From: Catenulispora sp. EB89
GTDB taxonomy: Bacteria; Actinomycetota; Actinomycetes; Streptomycetales; Catenulisporaceae
Direction of reading: 5' to 3'
Length of the DNA: 64,000 bases
Assembly: GCF_041261445.1 (NCBI RefSeq)
Contig: NZ_JBGCCU010000030.1
Coordinates: forward strand, 1-64,000
In this document: one piece after another, positions 14,504 to 33,708 of the stretch
How the letters are laid out: each line of letters begins with the position of its first letter
Numbering within the stretch: the stretch's first letter is position 1
Program-made: the position numbers and the translations under genes
The notes under the pieces: model-generated
What the model saw: the letters and a program-made list of their open reading frames with translations, nothing else
Told to the model about the DNA's origin: nothing
Database searches by the model: none

Positions 14504-15847
14504 ATGACCAGGCTTTTCGGCACCGACGGCGTTCGCGGCATGGCCAACCGGGATCTGACAGCGGAACTGGCGTTGGACCTTTCGGTGGCCGCCGCGCACG
14601 TCCTCGGCGAAGTGGGGGCCTTCGAGGGCCACCGCCCCAAAGCGGTGGTCGGCCGCGACCCCCGCGCCTCGGGGGAGTTCCTGGAGGGCGCGGTCGTCGC
14701 CGGGCTGGCCTCGGCCGGCGTGGACGTCCTGCGCCTGGGCGTCCTGCCCACCCCCGCGGTCGCCTACCTGACCGAGATCCTGGGCGCCGACCTCGGCGTG
14801 GTCCTGTCGGCCTCGCACAACCCGGCCCCGGACAACGGCATCAAGTTCCTCGCCCGCGGCGGCGTGAAGCTCGACGACGTCCTCGAGGACGCCATCGAGG
14901 CCCGCATGAACGAGCAGTGGTCCCGGCCGGTGGGCGCCGCCGTGGGCCGCGTCGCGGACTACCCCCAGGGCGGCGAGCGCTACATCGAGCACCTCCTGGA
15001 CACCCTCCCCAACCGCCTCGACGGCCTGAAGGTCGTCGTCGACGAGGCCAACGGCGCCGCCTTCCGCGTCTCCCCGGAGGCCCTGCGCCGCGCCGGCGCC
15101 GAGGTGATCGCCACGCACGTCGAGCCCGACGGCCTGAACATCAACGAGGACTGCGGCTCCACGCACCTGGAGAAGCTGAAGGCCGCCGTCATCGAGCACG
15201 GCGCGCACGCCGGCATCGCCCACGACGGCGACGCCGACCGCTGCCTGGCCGTGGACGCCGCCGGCGAGGAGGTCGACGGCGACCAGATCCTCGCGGTCCT
15301 CGCGCTCTCCCTGCGCGACCAGGGCAAGCTCGCCGGCGACACCGTGGTCGGCACCGTGATGGCCAACTTCGGCTTCAAGCAGGCCATGCAGCGCGAAGGC
15401 CTGAACTTCATCGAGACCGCCGTCGGCGACCGCTACGTCCTGGAGGCGATGCGCAACGGCGGCTACGTCCTCGGCGGCGAGCAGTCCGGCCACCTCATCC
15501 TCACCGAGCACGCCACCACCGGCGACGGCACCCTCACCGCCCTGCACCTGCTGGCCCGCGTGGCGGCCACCGGCCGCACCCTGGCCGACCTCGCCGGCGT
15601 GATGCACAAGCTGCCGCAGGTGATGATCAACGTGAAGGACGTCGACAAGTCCCGCGCCGCGACCAGCGCCGAACTGGCCCAGGCGGTCAAGGAGGCCGAA
15701 GCGGAACTGGCCGAGACCGGCCGGGTGCTGCTGCGCCCGAGCGGGACCGAGCCGCTGGTGCGCGTCATGGTCGAGGCCGAGGACGCGGAGCAGGCGCGGC
15801 GGCTGGCGTCACACCTGGCGGATGTGGTGAAGACGGCGCTGGGCTGA
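14504..15847 (+). CDS. glmM: Phosphoglucosamine mutase
   Basis: A 447-residue alpha-D-phosphohexomutase that converts glucosamine-6-phosphate to glucosamine-1-phosphate for UDP-GlcNAc and peptidoglycan synthesis. The N terminus [15 protein letters not shown] is diagnostic. The phosphoserine loop [15 protein letters not shown] places the phospho-Ser at S104. The metal site DGDADRCL and the C-terminal phosphate-binding [12 protein letters not shown] are intact. AGGAG lies about 13 nt before ATG 14504. It acts just after GlmS, encoded at 26388. Confidence 0.98.
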
Positions 15848-15938
15848 GGCCGAGCTGCCGCCGGCAGCGCCCGGCTGCGGCCGGGCGCGGTCGGGCGCGG
15901 TCGGGGCGGGGAGTGCGGCGCCACCCTCGCACGAACGT

Positions 15939-16003
15939 GTCAGCGGCGCGCGCTATACGTATGTTCGGGGGCGAATCCCCCTAACAAAATAGGCGCCGCT
16001 GAC
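15939..16003. terminator. Large hairpin downstream of glmM
   Basis: GTCAGCGGCGC (15939-15949) and GCGCCGCTGAC (15993-16003) are perfect 11-bp arms. Inside is a second stem, GGGGG-CGAAT-CCCCC (about 15966-15980). It could terminate glmM, or be the outer boundary of element A, which begins 3 bp later. No T tract follows on either strand. Confidence 0.5.
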
Positions 16004-16005
16004 CT

Positions 16006-16231
16006 ATGTGTGGGTGCTGGTGGCGGGTGCGGTTTGTTTGTGGGTTGACAGTCAAGGGCTTTTTTGACGGCTTCGCAGGGTTTTAAGAAGGATCCGCTGG
16101 GTGGCGCAGTTCGGTGGTGTGCCTGGGGACGCATTGGCGGCCGGCGGTTGTGCGTGTGCACGACCGCGCACAGGTCCGAGTCACTGCGCACACGTCAAGT
16201 GGGCGGGCGGCGGCCGCGTGTGGTGGGCACC
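16006..16231 (+). repeat. Element A, left inverted arm
   Basis: It runs from ATGTGTGGGTG to GGTGGGCACC. Its reverse complement is found at 16700-16927. Shared blocks include GACGGCTTCGC/TACGGCTTCGC, GCAGTTCGGTGGTGTGCC, TGGCGGCCGGCGG and GGTCCGAGTCACTG. The same blocks occur on the plus strand of element B. Confidence 0.85.
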
Positions 16232-16327
16232 AACAGTCAAAAGCAGGCGCCTCCGGCGGGGGCACTCGAGACTCTGAGGGATCCCCAACCCCCCGCCTCG
16301 GCGGCGGTGCGAGTGTTGGTCGCCGAG

Positions 16328-16486
16328 TCCCGGATCCCTCGTCGCTGACGTCGCCCGGAGGGAACCATCCCGGCCTGGCGGTGTCCAGCCGCATCACACG
16401 CTGCTGTGGTCCGGTCTCGTCCGGCCGGACACCGCCAGTCCAGGCTGGTTGTGCAAGCACCGCCGACAGCGACGAGGGATCCGGGA
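16328..16486 (-). ncRNA. Element A nested hairpin (putative structured RNA)
   Basis: Outer stem: 20 perfect pairs, 16328-16347 with 16467-16486 (CGGATCCCTCGTCGCTG side). Inner stem: 17 positions, CTGGCGGTGTCCAGCCG (16375-16391) with CGGCCGGACACCGCCAG (16422-16438), with one A-C mismatch on this strand that reads as U-G on the minus strand. The 30-nt loop contains GCTGCTGTGGT. The counterpart in element B keeps the same shape with compensated base changes. The minus strand is chosen from the wobble pattern. No promoter is identified. Confidence 0.45.
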
Positions 16487-16699
16487 CAACCCCACCTGTG
16501 GGAAGGATTCCCGCGTCTTGGACGCGGCCACGTCACGGCCGGGCATGTGCGCACCCGAGTGGACCGTGTCCACAGCACAGGCCGGGGTTGTCCGGGGAAC
16601 CCGGGACACAGGCGACCACAAGCAACGACCGGCGCCCAACAGCGCGGCCTTCCTCCCCTGGAGCGAGGCCGCTCGCCGCGCAGGCGTCGCCGGAGGCCT

Positions 16700-16927
16700 G
16701 GTGCCCACCAAACGCGGCCGCCGGCCGCCCACGTGACGTGTGCACAGTGACTCGGACCGGTGCGCGGTCGTGGACACGAACACCGCCGGCCGCCAACGCG
16801 TCCCCAGGCACACCACCGAACTGCGTCACCCAGCGAGGTCACCAAACCTTAGGCGAAGCCGTAAAAAGCTCTTAAAACCCACCAACAAACCGCAACCACC
16901 ACACCACAGCCACCCACACCCACACAT
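16700..16927 (-). repeat. Element A, right inverted arm
   Basis: Reverse-complement partner of 16006-16231. Read on the minus strand it contains ACGGCTTCGCCTAAGGTTTG, which matches element B more closely than the left arm does (about 30 nearly identical bases). So the two arms are not simply a recent self-copy. It ends 28 bp from the phosphofructokinase stop codon. Confidence 0.85.
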
Positions 16928-16954
16928 CAAGCAGGGGCGCCACGAAATGCCGCC

Positions 16955-18274
16955 TCACACCATCCGCTTCGGCTGCCCCGTGGTCTCCAGCACGTTCATC
17001 CACAACTGCCCGTGCGGATCCACCACGTTCCGGCTCGCGGTCGCCAGCTCGATCGGCAGATGCACCATCCGCCCGCTCCACTGCCCGACCACCATCGCCG
17101 TGAACCCGGCCATCCCCGCGTGCGTCGCCGCCTGTGCCAGCCGCGTGCAGTAGACCGCGTCGAAGGCGTTCGCCGGCACCGACCGGATCTCGTACCCCGG
17201 GTCCACGTACCGCACCGACAGCGGCTCGTCGCCGAACGACTCGATGATCCGCTTCTTCAGCAGCGCCCCGATGTCGTTCAGCTTCGCGTTGCCCGAGGCG
17301 TCGGTCTGGTCCGAGGCCGGGAAGTGCTCCTGGCCCGCGCCCTCGGCGACCACGACCACCGCGTGCCCCTGCTGCTCGACCTTCTTCTTCAGCCGGGACA
17401 GGAAGACGTTCACGTCGAACGGGACCTCGGGGATCAGCGTGAAGTCCACGGCGTGGCTGGCCAGCGTCGAGTAGCAGGCGATGAACCCGCTGTGCCGCCC
17501 CATCAGCTTCACCAGGCCGACGCCGTTCTCCGTCGAGGAGGCCTCTATGTGCGCCGCGCGGATGGACTTCGAGGCCTGCTCGAACGCCGTGTGGAAGCCG
17601 AAGGAGCGGTCGATCCAGGGGATGTCGTTGTCGATGGTCTTCGGGATCCCGACCACCGCGATGCGCTCGCCCCGGGCCCGCGCCTCGTCGGCCAGCTTCT
17701 CCGCGCCGCGCAGCGTGCCGTCGCCGCCGATGACGAACAGGATGTTGACGCCGAGCCGCACCATCGTGTCCACCGCGACCACCGGGTCCTGGTTGCCGCG
17801 GGAGGTGCCCAGGATCGTGCCGCCGCGGTTCTGGATGTCGGCGACGGCCTGCTCGGTGAGCACCATCGGCTCCGAGCCGTCGGCGAGGCCCTTGAAGCCG
17901 TTGCGGAAGCCCAGGACGCGCTTGACGCCGTAGGCCCGCCCCAGGTGCAGCACCAGGCCGCGGATCACGTTGTTCAGCCCCGGGCACAGCCCGCCGCAGG
18001 TGACGATGGCGGCGGTGACCTCGGACGGCTCGAAGAACAGCTTCCGGCGCGGTCCGCCGGGGTTGAAGGCCGGCAGCCCGGCCACGTCCACGTCGCGCTT
18101 GTTCGCTATGCCCTGGACCACGTCGAGCAGGACCCGGTCGGTCTCGGTGACGTAGTGCCACGTCTCCTCGCGCTCGCCGAGCAGGTCGGCCAGCGGCGTG
18201 TCGACGGTGCGCTCACCCAGGCGCGTGATGGCCAGATCATCGGAGGTGATGGTGAGAAGATCGGCCGTGTTCAT
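16955..18274 (-). CDS. ATP-dependent 6-phosphofructokinase
   Basis: A 439-residue phosphofructokinase of the long, plant-like group, distinct from the 320-residue PfkA. It phosphorylates fructose-6-phosphate to fructose-1,6-bisphosphate. The nucleotide-binding motif GGDGT (residues 183-187) has Gly where pyrophosphate-dependent enzymes have Asp, favouring ATP as donor. CGGLCPGLNNVIRG (93-106) and the catalytic PKTIDNDIPW (211-220) are intact. MGRHSGF follows. ATG 18274 is the start. It is monocistronic by context and divergent from an ABC export operon; its 3' end meets element A. Confidence 0.93.
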   Translation of the reverse strand: MNTADLLTITSDDLAITRLGERTVDTPLADLLGEREETWHYVTETDRVLLDVVQGIANKRDVDVAGLPAFNPGGPRRKLFFEPSEVTAAIVTCGGLCPGLNNVIRGLVLHLGRAYGVKRVLGFRNGFKGLADGSEPMVLTEQAVADIQNRGGTILGTSRGNQDPVVAVDTMVRLGVNILFVIGGDGTLRGAEKLADEARARGERIAVVGIPKTIDNDIPWIDRSFGFHTAFEQASKSIRAAHIEASSTENGVGLVKLMGRHSGFIACYSTLASHAVDFTLIPEVPFDVNVFLSRLKKKVEQQGHAVVVVAEGAGQEHFPASDQTDASGNAKLNDIGALLKKRIIESFGDEPLSVRYVDPGYEIRSVPANAFDAVYCTRLAQAATHAGMAGFTAMVVGQWSGRMVHLPIELATASRNVVDPHGQLWMNVLETTGQPKRMV

Positions 18275-20715: not shown

Positions 20716-21695
20716 CCATCGACGAGATCCCCGGGCAGCGCGAAGCCGCCGCCCCGGTCCCGACCCGCCCCGGCGGCCCGGCCGAGATCGTGCTGGACAA
20801 CGTGACCCACTGGTACGGCAACGTGGTCGCGGTCAACGACATCACGATGACCATCGGCCCCGGCGTCACCGGCCTGCTCGGCCCGAACGGCGCCGGCAAG
20901 TCCACGCTGCTGCACCTGGTCTCCGGCTTCCTGTCGCCCTCGCGCGGCACGGTCACCGTGGCCGGGCGGACCGCCTGGCACAACCCCGGCATCTACAAGG
21001 TGATCGGCCTGGTGCCCGAGCGCGACTCGGTCTACGCCTTCCTGACCGGCCGGCAGTTCGTCTCGGCGACCGCCAAGCTGCACAAGCTGAGCGACGTCGA
21101 GGGCGCCACGGCCCGCGCCCTGCGCATGGTCGAGATGGACACCGAGGCCGCCGACCGCCGCATCGACACCTACTCCAAGGGCATGCGGCAGCGCATCAAG
21201 GTCGCCGCCGCGCTGGTGCACGAGCCGGGAGTGCTGCTGCTGGACGAGCCGTTCAACGGCATGGACCCGCGCCAGCGCATGCACATGATGGACCTGCTGC
21301 ACCGTCTCGGCGACGCCGGCCACACCATCGTGTTCTCCTCGCACATCCTGGAGGAGGTCGAGCGGCTGTCCGGCACGGTCCAGGTGATCGTGGCCGGCCG
21401 GCTGGCCGCCTCCGGCGACTACCGCACCATCCGCAGGCTGATGACCAGCCGCCCGCACGTGTTCCAGGTCGCCTCCAGCGACGACCGGGCCCTGGCCGCG
21501 GCGCTGATCGGCCGGCAGTCCGTGAACGGCGTGGAGCTGAACCCCTCCGGGGGCCTGGAGGTGCGGGCCGGGGACTACGGCGCGTTCAGCCGGGAGCTGG
21601 CGGCGGTGGCGCGCGAGCACGGCGTGCGGCTGCGCACCGTACAGCCCACCGACGAGTCGCTGGAGTCCGTGTTCACCTATCTGGTGGCGTCGTAA
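20712..21695 (+). CDS. ABC transporter ATP-binding protein
   Basis: A 327-residue ABC ATPase. Motifs: GPNGAGKST (Walker A), YSKGMRQRIKVAAAL (signature), VLLLDEPFNGMDP (Walker B), FSSHILEEVE (H-loop). A C-terminal domain (about 240-327) ending PTDESLESVFTYLVAS is typical of exporter ATPases paired with ABC-2 permeases. It starts with GTG at 20712, which overlaps the TGA of the permease as GTGA. It lacks the long low-complexity tail of the first ATPase, so the two are not simple duplicates. Confidence 0.93.
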   Translation: MTIDEIPGQREAAAPVPTRPGGPAEIVLDNVTHWYGNVVAVNDITMTIGPGVTGLLGPNGAGKSTLLHLVSGFLSPSRGTVTVAGRTAWHNPGIYKVIGLVPERDSVYAFLTGRQFVSATAKLHKLSDVEGATARALRMVEMDTEAADRRIDTYSKGMRQRIKVAAALVHEPGVLLLDEPFNGMDPRQRMHMMDLLHRLGDAGHTIVFSSHILEEVERLSGTVQVIVAGRLAASGDYRTIRRLMTSRPHVFQVASSDDRALAAALIGRQSVNGVELNPSGGLEVRAGDYGAFSRELAAVAREHGVRLRTVQPTDESLESVFTYLVAS

Positions 21696-32901: not shown

Positions 32902-33035
32902 TTAGTCGGAGAGGGTGGGCGGGACCTCTGCTGGGGTGCGGTTGGGCCGTGGGTTGAAAGGCGATTTTTACGGCTTCGCCTAAGGTTTGGTGACCTCGCG
33001 GGGGGACGCAGTTCGGTTGAGCCCGGCTGGTTGCG

Positions 33036-33291
33036 CTGGCGGCCGCCGGTTTTCGTGGGCACGACCGCGCACTGGTTCAGGTCTGTGCGGCGGTGCGTTG
33101 GCGGCGGGCGGTTTTCGCGTCCACGACCCCGCACGGGTCCGAGTCACTGCGCACGCGTTTGGTCTGGCGGCCGCCGGTTTTCGCGTGCAAGACCGCGCAC
33201 TGGCTCAGGTCTCTGCTGTGGTGCGTTGGCGGCTGGCGGTTTTCGCGTCCACGACCCCGCACGGGTCCGAGTCACTGCGCACACGTCATGT
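33036..33291 (+). repeat. 128-bp tandem duplication inside element B
   Basis: Copy 1 (33036-33163) and copy 2 (33164-33291) are about 90% identical by eye. Each contains two related half-units of about 60 bp, one with GACCGCGCACTGG and one with CGACCCCGCACGGGTCCGAG. Element A has a single such unit per arm. Confidence 0.85.
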
Positions 33292-33464
33292 GGGCGGCTG
33301 CCTGCCGCGTTTGGTGGGCACCTCGAGGCCTCCGGCGGGCGCTCTACAGCGAGGGGGCGACCCGTGCGACCTGCTGTTTGGCGGCGGCCCGCGACTGTTT
33401 GGCTTGCCATCACGCTGTTGCCTGCGCCGCGCTGCCTGCCGGCGGTGCTGCTTGTGGTCGCCGA

Positions 33465-33624
33465 GGTTCTGGGTCCCTCACCGCGTCGTCGCCGTAAACG
33501 GAACCAGTCCGGTCCGGTGGTATCAAGCCGCACCCCTGCTGCTGTGGTGCTGTCGCGTCCGGCTTGACACCACCGGCCCGGCCAGGTTGGCTTCGCCCGC
33601 CGACGCGGCGAGGGACCCAGAACC
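33465..33624 (-). ncRNA. Element B nested hairpin (putative structured RNA)
   Basis: Outer stem: 33465-33488 pairs with 33601-33624 at 23 of 24 positions (GGTTCTGGGTCCCTC with GAGGGACCCAGAACC). Inner stem: CCGGTGGTATCAAGCCG (33514-33530) with CGGCTTGACACCACCGG (33560-33576). The one mismatch in each is A-C on the plus strand, i.e. U-G on the minus strand. The 29-nt loop shares GCTGCTGTGGT and GTCnCGTC with element A. On the minus strand it lies 85 nt past the GNAT stop codon. Confidence 0.45.
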
Positions 33625-33708
33625 AACACCCCCGCATGGTCCTTCGGACCCCCTAGCGACATGGCCGGTCACGCAGCCCCGTCGCCCCGCGCTTGCCCTG
33701 CAAGAACC

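Follow-up and report, generated by a model that had tools for sequence, protein, structure and literature searches.

Comparison of copies across genomes shows that Catenulispora has a family of transposable elements with hairpins of about 160 nt as modules, and that the minus strand of each hairpin tolerates G-U wobble pairs where the plus strand has A-C. Our data suggest, with a probability of roughly 0.6, that these transposon-borne hairpins act as RNA in the 3' regions of genes. Two of them, A and B, lie in the 64,000-nt stretch of Catenulispora sp. EB89 DNA analysed here (the window; contig NZ_JBGCCU010000030.1, positions 1 to 64,000), which belongs to a genome of 11.9 Mb in 70 contigs. 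The original prediction for this DNA, that the two hairpins differ by compensatory changes with wobble on the minus strand, is partly confirmed: the observation is real and larger than first described, with both patterns far above controls.

Architecture and transposition of the elements

Hairpin A sits in a transposable element between the convergent glmM and 6-phosphofructokinase genes. Hairpin B belongs to a second type of element, which has a single hairpin and, on one side of it, repeats related to the inverted ends. Both hairpins are present as predicted, and the features of the two loci are as follows.

14504-15847, plus strand: glmM, left neighbour, pointing at the element (TIGR01455, E 1.1e-173)
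15937-15991, plus strand: a second, unrelated repeat, into the end of which the element is inserted
15984-15991, no strand: left target duplication ACAAAATA, diverged, matching the right copy at 6 of 8 bases
15992-16941 (950 bp), no strand: transposable element of the A-b type, second hairpin collapsed
15992-16240, no strand: left terminal inverted repeat, inner limit approximate
16327-16487, minus strand: hairpin A; minus is the strand under putative structural selection
16488-16583, no strand: middle region separating the two hairpin sites
16584-16608, plus strand: remnant of the partner hairpin b, joined pieces of its two outer arms as read against intact copies
16690-16941, no strand: right terminal inverted repeat, inner limit approximate
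16942-16949, no strand: right target duplication ACGAAATG, diverged, as compared with the left copy
16955-18274, minus strand: 6-phosphofructokinase gene, right neighbour, pointing at the element (NF005301, E 9.6e-183)
32927-33464, no strand: left part of the B element, containing repeats akin to the terminal ones, limits approximate
33465-33624, minus strand: hairpin B of the single-hairpin element
33625-33700, no strand: right flank of the B element, about 75 bp alike among copies (14 right flanks), on the 5' side of the predicted RNA

On both sides, the element carrying hairpin A has inverted ends of the GGCGC..CTG..TGTGTGGGTG type, and genome G001 has an empty orthologous site in the same intergenic gap. 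Intact A-b copies measure about 1.0-1.1 kb and hold hairpins A and b, of about 160 nt each and in opposite orientation (head to head), separated by a middle of about 100 bp and bounded by long inverted ends of about 250 bp. We tried 29 elements for 8-bp target duplications and scored 24, both ends not having been found in the other five: at least 6 of the 8 bases are identical in 18 elements and all 8 in 11, against a mean of 1.7 and a maximum of 6 of 8 with shuffled partners. Terminal inverted repeats and target site duplications, which characterize bacterial MITEs, are both present, and the elements, at about 0.95-1.1 kb, are larger than the approximately 100-200 bp given for bacterial MITEs in one account (PMC2229807).

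No transposase-like gene was seen on reading the list of open reading frames of the window copy, and an end-pattern search of four genomes, with end pairs judged by eye, gave no clear copy of an autonomous relative with the same ends. A 2.5-kb copy (L154, G009:C9:279390-281930) has perfect outer 8-bp duplications and carries an IS256-family transposase gene between its hairpins. The ends and the weak 8-bp match of this gene suggest a secondary insertion; we do not claim the copy as an autonomous partner, and the gene is probably a later arrival. Another copy (L156, G009:C28:103288-104582) has its middle region interrupted, where L154 has the IS256 gene, by an insert of roughly 200 bp that has TTACACCAC-type ends.

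Other mobile sequences also enter the hairpins themselves. The inner stem has one site, on either arm, where both a MITE of about 180 bp and its parental IS have inserted, with about 10 duplicated bases; the transposase of this IS has a below-cutoff IS4-family match. All 14 distinct end junctions of the two fall at that site among the loci searched; these had been fetched for their hairpins, so that insertions elsewhere would go unseen. The copies in the inner stem are listed here.

G000 C8:148950-149130
G000 C4:182402-182580
G000 C21:139540-139720 and 139989-140167
G000, contig-end copies
L138, in G001

In the loop of a B hairpin lies an IS3-family element (G000 C5:276957-278322; NF033516, E 3.4e-92), a parallel to IS1397, which inserts into REP sequences.

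The second repeat next to the window element (GTGTCAGCGGCGCGCGCTATACGTATGTTC..CCCTAACAAAA), noticed also at L148, is a recurrent target, and its CTAACAAAAT end stands at the border of five elements of the own genome. C. acidiphila has two inverted copies of this repeat in the same glmM-pfk gap. In the flank of the C1 element (L019), TGTTTCACGCGAAACA, which we take to be a near-parS sequence, directly precedes the target site CTAACAAAATG.

Copies and range of the hairpins

The own genome of the window yielded 43 full-length hairpins for alignment (22 A, 13 b and 8 B; 41 distinct), split and contig-cut copies being left out. Adding the loci of six other genomes of the genus gave 155 matched places, some counted twice under two loci, of which 121 are full length and represent 99 distinct sequences. 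A covariance model built from 25 representative hairpins matches all 10 Catenulispora genomes, one of four other genomes of the family (G012, with two matches of 76-77 bits) and none of 133 further genomes; the best 20 candidates per genome were scored with stricter filters, and weak or further copies can be missed. A DNA search of 60 genomes, 10 of them of the genus, matched 7 of these 10, including the own genome, and returned weak matches (E 2.9e-4 to 9.2e-4) in four genomes of another genus of the order. A contig search for the pattern returned Catenulispora rubra only; it says little on the range because it missed C. acidiphila, where 5 of 12 loci (G004) hold the pattern.

Rfam, searched over window positions 15000-36000 at E<=1, gave no match on the hairpins; its sole match in that interval is mir-6579 at 21576-21641 (E 0.31, below the gathering score). 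The top-ranking results of a literature search contained no account of such an element in Catenulispora.

Paired changes in the stems

Hairpin A is built of outer arms at 16327-16353 and 16461-16487 and inner arms at 16363-16391 and 16422-16450. It folds with a z score of -8.1 on the minus strand and -7.2 on the plus strand, and on neither strand did any of 200 shuffles fold as well. Over 57 pairs, A and B differ at seven that are Watson-Crick in both, four outer and three inner. The three inner whole-pair changes from A to B are those predicted: T-A to C-G at 16376/16437, C-G to T-A at 16379/16434 and C-G to A-T at 16386/16427. In the outer stem, for which three paired changes had been announced, there are four (16329/16485, 16331/16483, 16334/16480 and 16342/16472). 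The mismatches had been described as exclusively A-C on the plus strand; this is true of all four wobble-type pairs, none being G-T (hairpin A, 16371/16442 and 16387/16426; hairpin B, 33480/33609 and 33522/33568), but the non-Watson-Crick pairs number 12, and the other 8 are A-A, T-C or C-T. The two loops do share a sequence, GCTGCTGTGGT, as had been noted.

The same pattern extends to further copies. RNAalifold places 50 pairs in the 25 representatives, 24 of which are changed on both sides in some sequence, and the cells changed on both sides number 136, where shuffles give 40 +/- 6.5 and slid partners 15 at most. For the 99 distinct hairpins, we used a null similar to that of R-scape rather than R-scape itself, in which Fitch substitutions were re-placed on a FastTree tree in 60 simulations. 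Of 13,203 column pairs, five are significant at E<=0.05, each of them one of the 60 stem pairs, so that covariation rises above the phylogenetic background as anticipated; 22 stem pairs have at least two changes on both columns. The tree of hairpins is approximate because of gene conversion between copies. The inferred changes include 76 from one Watson-Crick pair to another with both sides altered.

Matched changes of this kind might also arise in palindromes that matter as DNA only, if template switching in replication or gene conversion among copies keeps the arms alike, with no RNA function. According to one study, which also discusses a correction of G-U pairs that depends on direction, template switching can give compensatory changes without selection (PMC8794818); in our alignments, inner-stem alleles recur among copies as blocks. 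The mismatches, presented below, bear on this explanation.

Wobble pairs are tolerated on one strand

Read on the plus strand, the stems of the own-genome hairpins have 40 A-C cells (11 positions), 2 G-T cells (2 positions) and 156 cells with other mismatches; the 99 hairpins have 151, 10 and 404, respectively, and the preponderance of non-wobble mismatches over A-C speaks against an RNA reading. Among the inferred changes away from Watson-Crick on that strand, 51 lead to A-C, which is G-U on the minus strand, as against 9 that lead to G-T (p 3e-8 on the assumption of independent events). A-C outnumbers G-T in each of seven genomes, two of which have one hairpin each, and the A, b and B types of the own genome each lean the same way. 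On their better-matching (RNA) strand, 26 hairpins from G002, G003, G005, G006, G008 and G012, which played no part in building the model, have 69 G-U, 2 A-C and 75 other cells, and 23 more from G001 and G009 have 34, 0 and 62; these two sets were aligned to a model that itself leans to its own strand, and only the better strand per place was kept, the weaker opposite match being dropped (10 of 36 and 23 of 46 rows, respectively).

The inverted ends of the same elements serve as a control. In 15 own-genome elements, one of which aligned over 26 columns only, they have 117 A-C and 102 G-T cells, with no asymmetry; inverted ends need not fold as RNA. An explanation by DNA-only palindromes predicts no excess of A-C over G-T, and template switching offers no reason why hairpins of both orientations within an element should be asymmetric and its inverted ends symmetric. 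We consider it improbable on these grounds.

Mutation could contribute to the asymmetry. A-C pairs derive from G-C in 21 cases and from A-T in 24, and G-T pairs in 6 and 3, respectively. In unpaired columns, G>A (37) and C>T (40) are balanced, and we judged a transition bias at G/C insufficient as the sole cause. T>C (61) exceeds A>G (16) in the same columns, and part of the A-C excess derived from A-T may therefore be mutational.

The folded strand might instead work as single-stranded DNA, such as a site recognized during transposition or replication. The minus strand is the more stable in 87 of the 99 hairpins with RNA parameters and in all 99 with DNA parameters, and single-stranded DNA too would prefer G-T to A-C; because both parameter sets favour the minus strand, energy alone cannot tell RNA from single-stranded DNA. 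The repeated entry of other insertion sequences at one stem site is also in keeping with such a role. The 8-bp duplications and inverted ends, by contrast, suggest a transposase acting on duplex ends, and a single-stranded DNA site makes no prediction about orientation to upstream genes, for which we find a marked sense bias (see below). We regard this explanation as unlikely.

Gene context and proposed role

For 46 single hairpins, with genes called by G+C at the third codon position, the upstream gene points in the same direction in 33, in the opposite direction in 7 and is uncalled in 6 (33 vs 7, p 4e-5); some of these insertions may be common to close species, and some singles close to contig ends may be cut pairs. 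In the own genome, 15 of 18 B places were used, several of them split or cut, after three contig-end fragments had been left out: relative to the favoured strand, the closest called upstream gene has the same direction at 12 and the opposite direction at 2, and none was called at 1. Among the 12 same-way cases, the distance from the upstream stop codon to the hairpin is 56-172 nt in eight and 290-775 nt in the others. The 31 further single hairpins divide into 21 same-way, 5 opposite and 5 uncalled.

A-b elements are mostly found between convergent genes: 13 of the 18 own-genome elements for which both neighbours were called (out of 20 examined, none of them divergent) and 13 of 20 called in other genomes (30 examined, 2 divergent), where several element limits are approximate. 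Purging of upstream insertions would lead to the same placement, but it accounts less readily for the sense orientation of single hairpins than for the convergent bias. A point against an RNA role is that a transcript entering an A-b element from a neighbouring gene reaches first the hairpin that is favoured on its other strand.

That single hairpins mostly lie in sense after a gene and A-b elements mostly between convergent genes makes a structured 3' region of the neighbouring mRNA the likeliest role. The minus strand of each hairpin would be transcribed, and its fold would matter, the matched changes having kept the stems paired. Neither A nor B has a T run after the favoured strand, as a U-tract following the stem of an intrinsic terminator would require, and a canonical terminator was accordingly lowered among the candidates. 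The structure might terminate transcription without a U-tract, expose the long duplex to cleavage (e.g. by RNase III) or protect the 3' end; the ERIC and NEMIS repeats, described below, offer precedents. An A-b element could serve both convergent genes, since one hairpin is in the favoured sense on each of its strands. Taken together, covariation, the excess of A-C over G-T, the symmetric inverted ends and the sense orientation support the predicted origin of the pattern in an RNA copied from the minus strand.

The hairpins may also be structured RNA that is spread by the transposon and has a role of its own, as an outward regulatory RNA pair or an RNA of transposition, and is not merely an mRNA tail, although we give this little credence. 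One form of it would be two divergent small RNAs starting in the A-b middle and acting independently, in trans or on the element. The favoured strands do point outward from the middle in own-genome A-b pairs, and in intact copies both RNAs would start near GGGGTTGTCCC; single hairpins track the upstream gene instead, so that we think a pair of this kind rather unlikely.

Significance and relation to known systems

The family offers a clean case in which sequence alone indicates selection on one strand of a mobile-element hairpin, with unbiased inverted ends as an internal control, and this wobble-asymmetry test with its control is applicable to other palindromic repeats. Should the RNA prove real, the spread of the family supplies Catenulispora genomes with ready-made 3'-region structures and provides a test bed for transposons turning into regulatory RNA.

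Several bacterial repeats are comparable. The REP sequences are likewise palindromic targets of insertion sequences, specific ones according to PMC1525189; they measure 20-40 bp (PMC3733652), whereas the hairpins described here have 160 nt and internal loops. The Caulobacter CIR repeat also joins two inverted-repeat arms by a linker within one repeat and, as described in PMC2229807, has no terminal inverted repeat, unlike the present elements with their long inverted ends and 8-bp duplications. ERIC sequences of enterobacteria are hairpin repeats of another host group; the same source gives them 127 bp and 7-bp ends and reports that they are co-transcribed with neighbours and that their effect on mRNA stability depends on orientation. 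The Neisseria NEMIS/Correia repeats, too, have inverted ends and lie near genes, and stem-loops in their transcripts are proposed to act through RNase III (PMC2229807, PMC2649163). They comprise 107 or 155 bp with 24-bp ends in the former account, and these descriptions set them apart from our elements, which measure about 1 kb, have inverted ends of some 250 bp and carry two hairpins head to head. By this comparison, the Catenulispora element resembles the NEMIS and ERIC repeats, yet it has a two-hairpin architecture of its own and is larger than their size criterion allows.
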